64,000 bases of DNA from Nitrospira sp. (GTDB lineage Bacteria; Nitrospirota; Nitrospiria; Nitrospirales; Nitrospiraceae), in the NCBI GenBank assembly GCA_022226935.1, contig CP092081.1:2752181-2816180 (forward strand). The letters run 5' to 3'. This document shows positions 15,738 to 31,553 of the stretch, piece by piece (positions within the stretch are counted from its first letter, which is position 1; each line of letters starts with the position of its first letter). A program made the position numbers and the translations under genes. The notes beneath the pieces are model-generated. The model saw only the letters and a list, made by a program, of their open reading frames with translations, had not been told where the DNA came from and searched no databases.

Positions 15738-15922
15738 GGCTGGTCCTCCTCCGTTCCCTTCTCGATTTCACATCCATCGTCCTTCCACCAACGCCATCCG
15801 CCACCCAACTCCACCATAGGGTAGTCCTTGCCGGAGCACATCGAACCGGTCGTAAAAGCCTTTTTTGCCTCGAACCCCTCTTTCGCCTGCGCCGGTTCGT
15901 TGAACGTCGCTTGTGTCGCCAT
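15725..15922 (-). CDS. Small hypothetical protein before the alcohol dehydrogenase
   Basis: A 65-residue ORF with a strong ribosome site (AAGGAGG, 8 bp before ATG). It overlaps the dehydrogenase start by 13 bp, so the dehydrogenase ribosome site lies inside it. It is rich in Trp, Gly and Lys near the C-terminus (GGGWRWWKDD) with two cysteines. I recognise no family. The ribosome site and coupling favour a real gene. Confidence 0.55.
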   Translation of the reverse strand: MATQATFNEPAQAKEGFEAKKAFTTGSMCSGKDYPMVELGGGWRWWKDDGCEIEKGTEEDQPWRG

Positions 15923-16052: not shown

Positions 16053-16258
16053 TTAGCGTTCTGTGCCGCACTGAGCAATGAGCCGCACGTAGAATCGACA
16101 GCCCGGTCCCTTTTGACCCTCATCGGTCTCGGAGTTGCCCTTCGTCGAGACTGATGGAACTCCCCCGCAGACCACCAAATACGCGAGACCGCCGATGATC
16201 GCAAGGTTCTTCATCACATGCACGGTGAGTCCGAAATAATGACGCCCGCCGGTGTCTA
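16053..16258 (-). pseudogene. Remnant of a DoxX-family gene
   Basis: Reading minus from about 16258 gives HYFGLTVHVMKNLAIIGGLAYL, which matches the last helix of the tandem DoxX protein at 20450-21283 (FAKNLAIIGGLCYVGAYG). No start or N-terminal helices remain, and the tail after the helix is unrelated to DoxX. The frame runs past the 3' end of the NDH-2 fusion gene, so the N-terminal part was probably lost at this junction. An 11-bp inverted repeat (GGAGTTCCATC at 16007-16017, its complement at 16153-16163) flanks part of it. No gene is seen in 15923-16052. Confidence 0.7.
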
Positions 16259-18313
16259 TGCTCTTCTGAGCTGTTCCGAAGCCGAGGCAGGTTCATCCAA
16301 TCGCTGTGATAGCAGATGCCTCAACATCCGCTCCGAACGGATCACGCCGATCATCCGTCGCAAATCATGGTTCTCGACCACCGGCAGCCAATCGAGATCG
16401 TGCTTGTTCATCAGATCGCCGGCCATCAGGCTCGTGTCACCCTGAGTGATCACCAAGGGATCGACGCGCATAAACTCCTGCGCCTGGGTCGCCGGGTTCT
16501 GCCCTTGCGCAAAGGCCTCAAACAGCTCGTTCCTGGTGACGATCCCGTTCAAACGAGCATGCTCATCCAAGACACAGAGCCACTCGACCGCATGCTGGTC
16601 GAACAGGCGCACGGCCTCTTCAAACGTATCGGCGACAGACAAGCGATGCTCCGGCACCGGCTCCAGGAAGGTGGATAAAGGCGCGCGTTCGAGGGCAGCC
16701 CATGATTGGGCCAACCGTGGATTCAATCGAGGCCGCCGCCATCTCAGGGCCTGAGCCAGAAGATTGCGGAAGGGAGTGAGCGTACCGAAAATTTGCGAGA
16801 ACACCTCTTTCCCCATCACGAGCACTTCGACCGCCGTGCGGGCGCGCACACTCCCAATTCGCACGCTGCCGTCGAGGAGCGCGATCTCGCCGAAAAACTC
16901 TCCCGGCCCGAACCGCGCGAGAATCCTCGGCTGCCCCGCCGAGTCACGCTTGATGGCTTCGACCTCACCCTGTTCAATGACGTAAAAATACACCGCTGGG
17001 TCACCTTCGACGAAGATGTCATCACCCGGGCGATAATGCGCCCGCACGATCCGTTCGGTTCGATCGACCCTGGGATAGGCCAGATCACGAGGAAAGAACA
17101 GCTCCCAGGTCCAATCGAACGCGACCTTGATGCGGCGGGACCAGGAGGGAGATTTTAGCCAATAGACGGTCCTCCAGAGCCACCAGGCCGGAAACCCCGA
17201 GAGGCGGACACCCAAAATTTCAGCCACCGCGTTTTTCTCTCCGATGCCGCAGAGTTGCCCCAACGGTCTATAGGAAAATGGTCGGGTCGGTCGTCCCTTC
17301 AGCAGATGGATGATATTCTTCGCTGCTTGCTGGCCCTGCCGCTCGGCAAACTGGCCCGTCGTCGGCGACGGGTGGTTGTCGTACGCGTTGACGACCAGCG
17401 CGCAGTCGCCGATGGCCCAGACGTTCGACGCCCCGCGCAGCCGCAGGTCTGGATCGGTGAGCAACCGGCCGGCCTCCTTGGGAGCATCGAGCCGCTGCAC
17501 CAACTGCGGCATCGCCGTACCAATCGTGCAGACCAGGGTAGCCCCGCGGATCATCCGGCCATCTTGAAGCTCCACTCCCTCCGCGGTGGCCAGCACCGCT
17601 CGGGCCTGTAAGACCATCTGGATCCCGGCCTGCTCCATCTTCACCCTGGCAAACTCCCGTAACGCGGGGCTCACCTCAGGCAGAATATGATCACGGCTAT
17701 GGACCAGGGTCACGGTCACATCCTTAGCGCTGAAGTTGTTGTAAAATTTCGCGCTGACTCGAACCAGATCATTGATCTCGCCCGCCACCTCCACGCCGCT
17801 GAACCCCCCGCCGACCACCACGAACGACAGATACCAGCGCCGTCGTTCGGGGTCGTCGCAGACCTCGGCCTTCTCAAGCTGCTCGGTCACGTGAAACCGC
17901 AAGGCGATGGCATCGCCCACCGACTTCAACGGAAACGCATGATCGGCCATGCCCGGCACAAGGGTGAGGTTTACGGCGGCCCCGCATGCGATCACGGCAT
18001 GGTCGAACGGCATGCGGTTCAGGCGGCCGGCGTCCCCCATATATTCCACCTCGGACACAGGGAGATCGATCCGGCGTACTTCTTCCGTGCGGCATCGGAC
18101 TCCCGGCAACATCTGCCGCAGCGGCACCGTGACCGCACCGGGGTTGATCGCCGCGCCGGCCACTTCCGCCAGCAGCGGATAGAAGACCATGCTGTTTTCT
18201 CGGCTGAACAACACGATCTCGCAGGATTCCAGCCGCAATCGCTTGCGTAGAATCCTCGCGCATTTCACCCCGGCAAATCCGCCACCGACGATGATGATTC
18301 TCGTGATTGCCAT
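16256..18313 (-). CDS. Type II NADH dehydrogenase fused to cNMP-binding and CBS domains
   Basis: 685 residues. Residues 1-400 are a type II NADH:quinone oxidoreductase: FAD motif GGGFAG (10-15), NAD motif VVVGGGFSG (165-173) and NVWAIGDCA (297-305). Residues about 418-520 are a cyclic-nucleotide-binding domain with a cassette at 474-491 (FGEIALLDGS...). Residues about 551-670 are a CBS pair. The fusion implies NADH oxidation gated by a nucleotide, perhaps cAMP/c-di-GMP through cNMP and ATP/AMP through CBS; the ligands are inferred. Upstream lie CTGTCG-TG-CGACAG at 18343-18356 and a DNA palindrome at 18335-18344. Confidence 0.92.
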   Translation of the reverse strand: MAITRIIIVGGGFAGVKCARILRKRLRLESCEIVLFSRENSMVFYPLLAEVAGAAINPGAVTVPLRQMLPGVRCRTEEVRRIDLPVSEVEYMGDAGRLNRMPFDHAVIACGAAVNLTLVPGMADHAFPLKSVGDAIALRFHVTEQLEKAEVCDDPERRRWYLSFVVVGGGFSGVEVAGEINDLVRVSAKFYNNFSAKDVTVTLVHSRDHILPEVSPALREFARVKMEQAGIQMVLQARAVLATAEGVELQDGRMIRGATLVCTIGTAMPQLVQRLDAPKEAGRLLTDPDLRLRGASNVWAIGDCALVVNAYDNHPSPTTGQFAERQGQQAAKNIIHLLKGRPTRPFSYRPLGQLCGIGEKNAVAEILGVRLSGFPAWWLWRTVYWLKSPSWSRRIKVAFDWTWELFFPRDLAYPRVDRTERIVRAHYRPGDDIFVEGDPAVYFYVIEQGEVEAIKRDSAGQPRILARFGPGEFFGEIALLDGSVRIGSVRARTAVEVLVMGKEVFSQIFGTLTPFRNLLAQALRWRRPRLNPRLAQSWAALERAPLSTFLEPVPEHRLSVADTFEEAVRLFDQHAVEWLCVLDEHARLNGIVTRNELFEAFAQGQNPATQAQEFMRVDPLVITQGDTSLMAGDLMNKHDLDWLPVVENHDLRRMIGVIRSERMLRHLLSQRLDEPASASEQLRRA

Positions 18314-20449: not shown

Positions 20450-21283
20450 CTATCGGACCGAATTTCGCCTCGCATCGAGACTCAGGGACCCAGCCCCCTG
20501 CGCCAAGACACAGATGAGGCCGCCCAGGATCGCGAAGTTTTTCATCATGTGAAACTGTTGGTCTTGAAGCGTCGCATCCAAAACAAAACTCATGGACGTC
20601 CGATGAAACATCATGGTTGCAGGAACGATGACGAGGATCAATACCGCTGCGCCGGCCCTGGTCCACCAGCCAAGCCATAAACACAAGGCGCCGATCATTT
20701 CCAATATGATCGCTCCGGCGTAGAACAGCTCCGCGCCCGGGAACGGTCCCATGGCTTCTATGTATGGTCGAGCTCTTTCCGGATTCAGAATATTGTTCAT
20801 GCCCGACAACACAAAGATGGCGCCCAGCAAAATGCGGCCCGCCAACGCCAGCACAGCGTGATGGGGCTCCGCGATGGCAACGTTCCTCGACACATGGTCC
20901 TGCGCATCCATACTGCGGGTGCCCGGTCCATACGCGCCGACATAGCAGAGTCCGCCGATGATGGCGAGATTCTTGGCAAAGTGGACGAGTTGGTTCGGAT
21001 CGGTCAGATGGGTGTGAAAAATTCCGGTCACCATCATCATGAACAGCACGAGCAAAAAGACCGCTTCGCGAGTGGTATGACCGAGAGCGAGGGCGATGCC
21101 GCCGCCGAATTCAATCACGGTGGCTCCGAGATACAGCAGCATGGTACCCGCGGTCAGACCATAGGCCGCCATATACTGTTGTGTGCCTTCAGGATTGAAG
21201 ACCTTATGGAGACCGGCCCACAGGAATAGGGCCGCGAGCAAAAGACGACCCGTCAAGCTGAGGGCCGGTTCATATTGCTGCAT
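20450..21283 (-). CDS. Tandem DoxX-family membrane protein
   Basis: 277 residues containing two DoxX domains in a row, about eight helices in total. Repeat 1 covers residues about 10-125 (LLAALFLWAGLHKVFNPEG to FAKNLAIIGGLCYVGAYG). Repeat 2 covers about 145-265 (ILLGAIFVLSGMNNILNPE to HMMKNFAILGGLICVLAQG). DoxX proteins are usually four-helix and linked to terminal oxidases, thiosulfate:quinone reduction or thiol oxidative stress. The DoxX remnant at 16053-16258 derives from this type. Confidence 0.88.
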   Translation of the reverse strand: MQQYEPALSLTGRLLLAALFLWAGLHKVFNPEGTQQYMAAYGLTAGTMLLYLGATVIEFGGGIALALGHTTREAVFLLVLFMMMVTGIFHTHLTDPNQLVHFAKNLAIIGGLCYVGAYGPGTRSMDAQDHVSRNVAIAEPHHAVLALAGRILLGAIFVLSGMNNILNPERARPYIEAMGPFPGAELFYAGAIILEMIGALCLWLGWWTRAGAAVLILVIVPATMMFHRTSMSFVLDATLQDQQFHMMKNFAILGGLICVLAQGAGSLSLDARRNSVR

Positions 21284-22285: not shown

Positions 22286-22792
22286 TTACAAGCTGCGGAA
22301 GGCATATGCCGACTTGCCGGGCTCCGAGGGCTGAACCTTCGCCGGTTCACCCAGCCATTTTGCGATCAATCCATCCAGCGACCACTTGCCGCCACCGATG
22401 ATGAACAGCGCCGCACTCATCGCGATGACGAGCAGGTGATATTCGAACCCTTCGCCTTGTTGTTGCCCGAACCAATTCATGAAAAACCCCTGCGGCAAGT
22501 GCACGGTCACGATCGCCCCGAGCATGATGACGACAAAGCTCGCCGCCGTGAATCGCGTGAACAGGCCCGCGATCAATCCGAGACTGCCGATGGACTCCCC
22601 GATGATGACCAGGAACGCGATCAGCCAGGGCAGCCCCATCTTCTGCGTGAAGAATCCCATGGTTCCTTCGAAACCGAACCCGCCGAACCAGCCAAGCAGC
22701 TTCTGCGCGCCGTGCGCAACAATGACCCCGCCCAGAACCACTCGCAGAATCAAACCCGCCCAAGACTCATCTGTTTTGAAAAATGTGTACAT
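22286..22792 (-). CDS. DoxX-family membrane protein, copy 1
   Basis: 168 residues, four helices. [23 protein letters not shown] and the C-terminal [22 protein letters not shown] are DoxX hallmarks. It is nearly identical to copy 2 at 31026-31532; the visible differences are conservative. In related bacteria DoxX-type proteins act in membrane redox or thiol-stress complexes. It lies between the 37-residue membrane peptide and the STAS gene, downstream of a sigma-54 promoter. Confidence 0.92.
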
Positions 22793-31025: not shown

Positions 31026-31532
31026 TCAGAACATGCGCAAAGCGAAATGTGCCTCCCGCGCCTTCGGATCCGGCGAAGTCGCCCGTTCCCCAAGCCAGCG
31101 GGCGATGACACCATCTAACGCCCACTTTCCTCCGCCCACGATCAATAACGCCAGGCTCATGCCAATGACCAGCAGGTGATATTCAAACCCTTCACCGGTC
31201 TGCTGCCCGAACCAGTTCATGAAGAACCCTTGCGGCAAGTGCACGGTCATGATCGCGCCCAGCATGATCACGATAAAGCTCGCCGCTGTGAACCGCGTGA
31301 GCAGGCCGGCAATCAGCCCAAGACTGCCGATGGACTCCCCGATGATGACGAGGAATGCGACCACCCAGGGGAGGCCCATTTTTTGAGTAAAGAACCCCAT
31401 CGTGCCCTCAAACCCGAACCCGCCGTACCAGCCCAATAGCTTCTGAGCGCCGTGCGCGAAGATCACGCCTCCCAGCACCACCCGCAAAATCAAACCTGCC
31501 CAAGAATCATCTGTTTTGAAAAAGCGGTACAT
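31026..31532 (-). CDS. DoxX-family membrane protein, copy 2
   Basis: 168 residues, the same length as copy 1 at 22286-22792 and nearly identical from residue 1 to about 160. The C-terminal tail differs (ERATSPDPKAREAHFALRMF). Four helices with [13 protein letters not shown]. It follows the 43-residue membrane peptide by 21 bp, downstream of P3. Confidence 0.92.
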   Translation of the reverse strand: MYRFFKTDDSWAGLILRVVLGGVIFAHGAQKLLGWYGGFGFEGTMGFFTQKMGLPWVVAFLVIIGESIGSLGLIAGLLTRFTAASFIVIMLGAIMTVHLPQGFFMNWFGQQTGEGFEYHLLVIGMSLALLIVGGGKWALDGVIARWLGERATSPDPKAREAHFALRMF

Positions 31533-31553
31533 GTCACACCTCCTTGATATGAA

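Follow-up and report, generated by a model that had tools for sequence, protein, structure and literature searches.

A predicted type II NAD(P)H:quinone oxidoreductase with a putative cyclic-nucleotide/CBS sensor module in Nitrospira and about ten phyla

Type II NADH dehydrogenases (NDH-2) are a main electron entry point in many respiratory chains. To our knowledge, direct allosteric control of NDH-2 is known mainly for the calcium EF-hand forms of plants and fungi. Some EF-hand NDH-2s take NADPH as donor and carry a non-acidic selector residue (PMC5299459, PMC6134880), and S. aureus NDH-2B has been assayed as an NADPH:quinone oxidoreductase that prefers NADPH over NADH (PMC11302666). A survey of 1762 NDH-2s left out sequences with other fused domains (PMC5299459). 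NDH-2s with added regulatory parts (EF-hands) as well as enzymes fused to a cyclic-nucleotide-binding (cNMP) domain are already known; of the combination of NDH-2, cNMP domain and CBS pair described here, we found no earlier description in the open-access literature searched.

The gene under study lies on the minus strand of a 64,000 nt window from a Nitrospira sp. genome, where the window is the whole stretch of DNA that was analysed. Its open reading frame runs from ATG to stop without internal stops, and every Pfam match on the encoded 685-residue chain exceeds the gathering cut-off. Respective coordinates are listed in Table 1. A sequence-only reading of the window, which named no strand, had proposed an NDH-2 followed by a cNMP domain and a CBS pair; this identity and order of domains is confirmed by Pfam, by structure matches and by relatives with the same order. 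In our reading, to which we give a probability of about 0.58, the protein is a type II NAD(P)H:quinone oxidoreductase that docks monotopically at the membrane, and a C-terminal cAMP/CBS sensor module would set its turnover.

Table 1. Features of the NDH-2-cNMP-CBS gene and of nearby DoxX genes (window positions).
Feature	Position	Strand	Basis
Whole gene, NDH-2 - cNMP-binding - CBS pair, 685 aa	16256..18313	-	ORF, Pfam, AlphaFold2 model
FAD/NAD(P)H two-dinucleotide-binding fold (Pyr_redox_2), residues 5-327	17333..18301	-	Pfam 2e-38
Glu175, equivalent of NDH-2 catalytic Glu172 (S. aureus)	17789..17791	-	alignment to 4nwz
His205-Ser206-Arg207, end of second beta-strand of NAD(P)H domain; Glu in ordinary NDH-2s	17693..17701	-	alignment
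Quinone-site motif GQFAER (AQxAxR-type variant), residues 320-325	17339..17356	-	alignment
NDH2_C, membrane-docking amphipathic helices, residues 352-410	17084..17260	-	Pfam 5e-11, model
Cyclic-nucleotide-binding domain (cNMP_binding, PF00027), residues 426-509	16787..17038	-	Pfam 1.5e-22, 79.8 bits
Phosphate-binding cassette GEFFGEIALLDGSVRIGSV, residues 471-489 (Glu476, Ala478, Arg485)	16847..16903	-	alignment of relatives
CBS pair (Bateman module), residues ~546-668	16310..16678	-	Pfam CBS x2, 5e-12
DoxX-family membrane protein, two DoxX repeats, possible functional associate	20450..21283	-	
Second DoxX-family gene, possible functional associate	22286..22792	-	
Third DoxX gene	~31029-31553	same strand as fusion	

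The AlphaFold2 model of the fusion has a mean pLDDT of 86.5 and a pTM of 0.60. Between the membrane-docking helices and the cNMP domain lies a short flexible linker (residues ~411-421), and a long helix (502-530) bridges the cNMP domain and the CBS pair. Given this pTM and a pLDDT below 50 for linker residues 415-420, the position of the sensor relative to the enzyme is not predicted by the model. A frameshift fusion, a chimera or an assembly artefact is ruled out by about 75 relatives that are full length or nearly so, and relatives in other genomes rule out a fusion unique to the source genome. Phage origin was likewise rejected, as no phage record spans 80% of the fusion. A promoter and terminator scan on the gene's strand gave no signal above chance.

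The combination had been called unusual, which does not hold: the fusion family is found in about 10 phyla and is monophyletic with the same domain order, some members being without CBS. While the family is thus widespread, neither a report nor a published role of an NDH-2-cNMP-CBS fusion was found in the open-access literature searched; a mention in the main NDH-2 survey of 2016 (cited in PMC5299459) is possible. About 30 of the 396 sampled Nitrospirota genomes have an NDH-2-cNMP fusion. Respective sequences form three groups, i.e., full-length Nitrospira members with CBS (70-81% identical), members with CBS from another family of the order (~37% identical; one is shorter), and CBS-less fusions that are more distantly related. 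Named relatives of 69-77% identity are mostly Nitrospira MAGs. Scanning GTDB (one genome per species) yielded 60 loci, which are for the most part full length, from Verrucomicrobiota (mainly Opitutaceae), Acidobacteriota, Planctomycetota, Thermodesulfobacteriota and Myxococcota as well as Ignavibacteriota, SAR324, Melainabacteria, Chloroflexota and others; since the query was an alignment near the Nitrospira clade, this distribution is a lower bound that is biased to that clade's relatives. Full-length copies in many phyla are 43-59% identical, and a Gemmatirosa megaplasmid (Gemmatimonadota) carries a copy with 51% identity. Most carriers are MAGs, such that a few taxon labels may be wrong.

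In a tree of the NDH-2 domain, 42 of the fusion rows (37 with and 5 without CBS) form one clade with support 100/99, which stands well apart from the ordinary NDH-2s of Nitrospira genomes. When members are compared pair by pair, the identities of the three parts (NDH-2, cNMP and CBS) are correlated (r 0.89-0.95; Mantel r 0.90-0.95). That is, the parts diverge in step and the chain is therefore inherited as a unit. CBS-less members are placed at separate positions within the clade, which suggests CBS loss.

For the first 410 residues, the best solved structures by sequence are the NDH-2s of C. thermarum (1.1e-41) and S. aureus (2e-40), and the predicted fold matches NDH-2 structures with a target TM of 0.90-0.91. 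Two dinucleotide-binding motifs of the GxGxxG type are present (GGGFAG, 10-15; GGGFSG, 168-173). Both Glu175 and Gln321 are invariant among 46 aligned relatives; for comparison, the catalytic Glu172 is 97% conserved in NDH-2s, whose quinone motif is known in the variants AQxAxQ, AQxAxR and APxAxQ (PMC5299459). Elsewhere the motif reads AQFAxR, its first Ala being replaced by Gly in most of the fusion clade. The C-terminal membrane-interacting helices are found at 374-386 and 391-406 of the AlphaFold2 model, with NDH2_C above its cut-off. As an alternative identity we considered a sulfide:quinone oxidoreductase. This was rejected, since the top matches by sequence and by fold are NDH-2s throughout and the respective structure 3hyv is only found at rank 33 (target TM 0.71).

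Fold and motifs are hence those of the quinone-reducing NDH-2 that had been claimed, but NADH as its donor is uncertain, because the selector Glu is replaced by His-Ser-Arg. Across the fusion family, the selector position is His in 78/83 members, followed by Ser (69/83) and Arg (57/83). The ordinary NDH-2 of the source genome keeps the selector Glu. A group of unfused NDH-2s from the same bacterial family (L129-L135; 36-38% identical) shows Ser, His or Asn instead of Glu. The closest unfused relatives also are without the selector Glu, and the change thus goes with a wider group and not with the fusion itself. In fungal and plant NDH-2s, a non-acidic selector residue is a sign of NADPH use (PMC6134880). 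Given the replacement of the acidic selector, the donor of the fusion may be NADPH, or the enzyme may show dual specificity, in which case the name NADH dehydrogenase is possibly a misnomer.

The cNMP domain had been proposed to keep most ligand residues of its phosphate-binding cassette, and this stands up among relatives. CRP and PKA hold the ribose and the phosphate through these cassette residues, Glu and Arg among them. In the 83 aligned fusions, Gly475 and Glu476 are found without exception (83/83), position 478 is Ala or Ser in 81/83, and Arg485 is present in 78/83, with His or Tyr in the other 5; a loss of the ligand residues in all relatives is therefore not what we observe. Gly475, Glu476 and Arg485 rank with the best-conserved columns of the domain, whereas the loop residues next to them are free to vary. 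When the C-terminal ~270 residues are modelled alone, they match cAMP-bound MtbCRP as well as Bd1971 with Z ~15.6 (15.6 across 103 residues for MtbCRP-cAMP). The best profile matches of the module include PKG, PKA-R, SthK and Bd1971, i.e., cyclic-nucleotide binders.

Similarly, the claimed CBS pair is there as two CBS domains, of which CBS1 retains the canonical G-h-h-S/T-x-x-D/E motif (G590-T593-x-x-E596), but the motif of CBS2 is lost in most of the family. For CBS1, G590 is kept in 67/69, T/S593 in 62/69 and D/E596 in 66/69 relatives. CBS2 shows R659..R662 in place of S/T-x-x-D, where Arg659 is found in 55/69 relatives and position 662 is mostly Lys or Arg. The pair as modelled in the C-terminal part matches CBS-pair proteins crystallised with AMP (Z ~16). 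It is the least conserved part of the chain (mean identity 34% vs 60% for NDH-2 and 52% for cNMP) and is missing from some Planctomycetota, Acidobacteriota and other members. Judged from these motifs, our best guess is one adenylate-type CBS site that is perhaps aided by basic residues.

With regard to ligand supply, the single class III nucleotide cyclase encoded in the source genome (4.23 Mb, one contig) is of the CHASE2 type. Its motifs FSDI, NKYLGD and VTGDSVNLASR are in place, both metal aspartate motifs are present, and it has the K and D residues that are usually linked to ATP use. Carrying the K, D, N and R expected of an active ATP-using enzyme, it would be a candidate source of cAMP. 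A class III cyclase is found in 28/29 genomes of the genus, with or without the fusion, and no signal of co-occurrence is seen among these 29 genomes. The cyclase thus shows supply but not linkage. Besides the fusion, the genome has an NDH-2 of the ordinary kind, which is distantly related to it, and complex I is represented by two NuoH genes. Outside the window, it further encodes an MscS-type mechanosensitive channel with a C-terminal cNMP domain and the canonical cassette GKFFGEMSLLTGEPRSATV (L138), which is possibly another cAMP effector in the same cell.

Among the neighbouring genes, those of the DoxX family stand out. Three of the four DoxX genes of the source genome are located 2.1-12.7 kb upstream of the fusion on the same strand, and DoxX genes are rare (~0.8 per Mb in 12 genomes). 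At 7 loci DoxX is found at most 450 nt from the fusion, in each case on the strand of the fusion. Five of these genes lie 6-122 nt upstream (one in a Blastocatellia member, one in a further Acidobacteriota, two in Thermodesulfobacteriota and one in Myxococcota), and a sixth, in a Nitrospira, lies 438 nt upstream; in one member of Nitrospirota, DoxX is 249 nt downstream. As a control, 1 DoxX gene was found around 20 unfused NDH-2 loci. The Poisson probability of seven DoxX genes within 450 nt is ~3e-15, to be read with the loci being non-independent and representing about five lineages. In many members, and in every one of the Opitutaceae examined, no DoxX lies near the fusion. Neighbour clustering revealed no operon logic common to all members, i.e., DoxX association apart, no neighbour family occurs in more than 9 loci. 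We consider DoxX as partner or anchor in several lineages a lead that may hold rather than a result.

Some further observations concern the surroundings of the fusion. Directly past its stop (window 16100-16243, minus strand), a short frame HYFGLTVHVMKNLAIIGGLAYLVVCGG resembles, by eye, the C-terminal end of DoxX and is possibly a DoxX remnant. At ~15738-15922 (minus strand), immediately 5' of the gene for the zinc alcohol dehydrogenase, a small ORF of no assigned family (MATQATFNEPAQAKEGFEAKK...) has a good ribosome-binding site. In two genomes (L057:5774-7438 in G171, L058:5313-8054 in G199), a second copy lies beside an intact NDH-2-cNMP gene. Its NDH-2 part is without the catalytic Glu and the quinone Gln, and an N-terminal membrane region precedes it, which is DoxX-like below the Pfam cut-off; a DoxX model search gave no match. 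This copy is perhaps a pseudoenzyme partner and anchor. In a Blastocatellia MAG, the gene directly 3' of the fusion encodes an ankyrin-repeat Ser/Thr protein kinase (L115:8034-10667).

The sensor data allow for other readings. The C-terminal module could be structural, i.e., serve oligomerisation or membrane docking after ligand binding was lost, such that the enzyme would be a constitutive NDH-2. The loss of the CBS2 motif in most members would fit, as would a CBS pair that is dispensable in several lineages and the five members without Arg485. However, Gly475, Glu476 and Arg485 are kept at 94-100% across phyla while their loop neighbours are free to change, a pattern that one would hardly expect of a domain without ligand, and we hold this reading to be unlikely. 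Slightly less probable still is that the sensor answers not to cAMP but to cGMP, c-di-GMP or some different nucleotide, as is the case for some CRP-like domains, and gates the enzyme accordingly. Here, the first Foldseek rows for the sensor are Clp, annotated there as c-di-GMP-responsive, the genome encodes several GGDEF proteins, and I486-G487-S488 following Arg485 differ from CRP and PKA. Against this, the cassette is PKA/PKG/SthK-like with Glu, Ala and Arg in their usual places, and the motifs of the sole class III cyclase point to ATP use.

A very unlikely reading in our view is that enzyme and DoxX form a redox-stress or sulfur/thiol membrane complex apart from general respiration, with the cNMP domain as stress input. 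It would account for DoxX genes adjoining the fusion in Acidobacteriota, Thermodesulfobacteriota, Myxococcota and Nitrospirota, for the presence of three out of the four DoxX genes of the genome on the fusion's strand at a distance of no more than 13 kb, and for the OsmC, nitroreductase, zinc alcohol dehydrogenase and NAD(P)-binding protein genes in the neighbourhood of the fusion. It is at odds with the many members, among them the Opitutaceae, that are without DoxX nearby, as well as with an enzymatic core and quinone motif of NDH-2 type, given that sulfide:quinone reductases rank far lower.

For the preferred reading, a sensor-gated NAD(P)H:quinone oxidoreductase, the following mechanism would apply. 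Fold and conserved catalytic residues suggest that NAD(P)H reduces FAD, which in turn would reduce quinone at the amphipathic-helix face. The CRP/PKA-type domain probably binds cAMP from the single CHASE2 class III cyclase, and the CBS pair, based on its motifs, probably has one site that responds to an adenine nucleotide. Ligand binding would then, by way of the linker past the membrane helices, shift the sensor with respect to the membrane face or the dimer, such that access of quinone or NAD(P)H is opened or closed; our guess for the effect of cAMP is relief of autoinhibition. A membrane protein of the DoxX family may join as partner or anchor in several of the lineages.

In Nitrospira, NADH has to come from nitrite via reverse electron flow (PMC6606698, PMC12342949). 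This route is costly, and an ungated NDH-2 would form a futile cycle, which makes gating physiologically sensible. For heterotrophic members, to which we do not extend this nitrite-oxidiser argument, the general role would be to balance NAD(P)H against energy charge. If true, bacteria would gain post-translational, second-messenger control of NAD(P)H oxidation via cAMP and adenylate sensors on the NDH-2 itself, and the coexistence of a non-pumping NDH-2 with complex I reverse electron flow in nitrite oxidisers would be explained; respiration may then be switched directly by a signalling molecule. A more far-reaching picture, namely an undescribed cross-phylum class of cAMP-/adenylate-gated NADPH:quinone oxidoreductases, DoxX-partnered in several lineages and acting as a valve from NADPH (or NADH) to quinone, is speculative and rather doubtful as a whole.

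Compared with known systems, the fusion shares with the NDH-2s of C. thermarum (4nwz) and S. aureus (5na1) the fold (target TM 0.90), the FAD motif, the catalytic Glu, the AQxAxR-type quinone motif and the C-terminal membrane helices. It differs from them by ~270 extra C-terminal residues (cNMP and CBS) and by His-Ser-Arg in place of the NADH-selecting Glu. S. aureus NDH-2B shows the donor preference suggested for the fusion (PMC11302666), while it is not known to carry a sensor domain. In B. subtilis YjlD-YjlC (PDB 9a63, 9pxk), an NDH-2 also has a partner, but this is a separate polypeptide, and there is no fused nucleotide sensor. Enzyme-fused cNMP domains are found in the EAL phosphodiesterase Bd1971, which aligns to the fusion's sensor with Z 15.6 and 30% identity, and in the mycobacterial acetyltransferase Pat, whose model match is below the cut-off; in both cases, the enzyme as well as the position and coupling of the sensor are different. 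DarB, CbpB and AcuB share the fold of the fusion's CBS pair (Z ~16) and were crystallised with AMP, ADP, ATP or c-di-AMP, but they are stand-alone proteins, and CBS2 of the fusion is without the usual nucleotide motif. Finally, the plant and fungal EF-hand NDH-2s (NDB type) resemble the fusion in that a regulatory ligand-binding part is added on the NDH-2 chain; in their case this part is a calcium EF-hand that follows the GD motif as an insertion, and in the fusion it is a C-terminal cNMP-CBS module.
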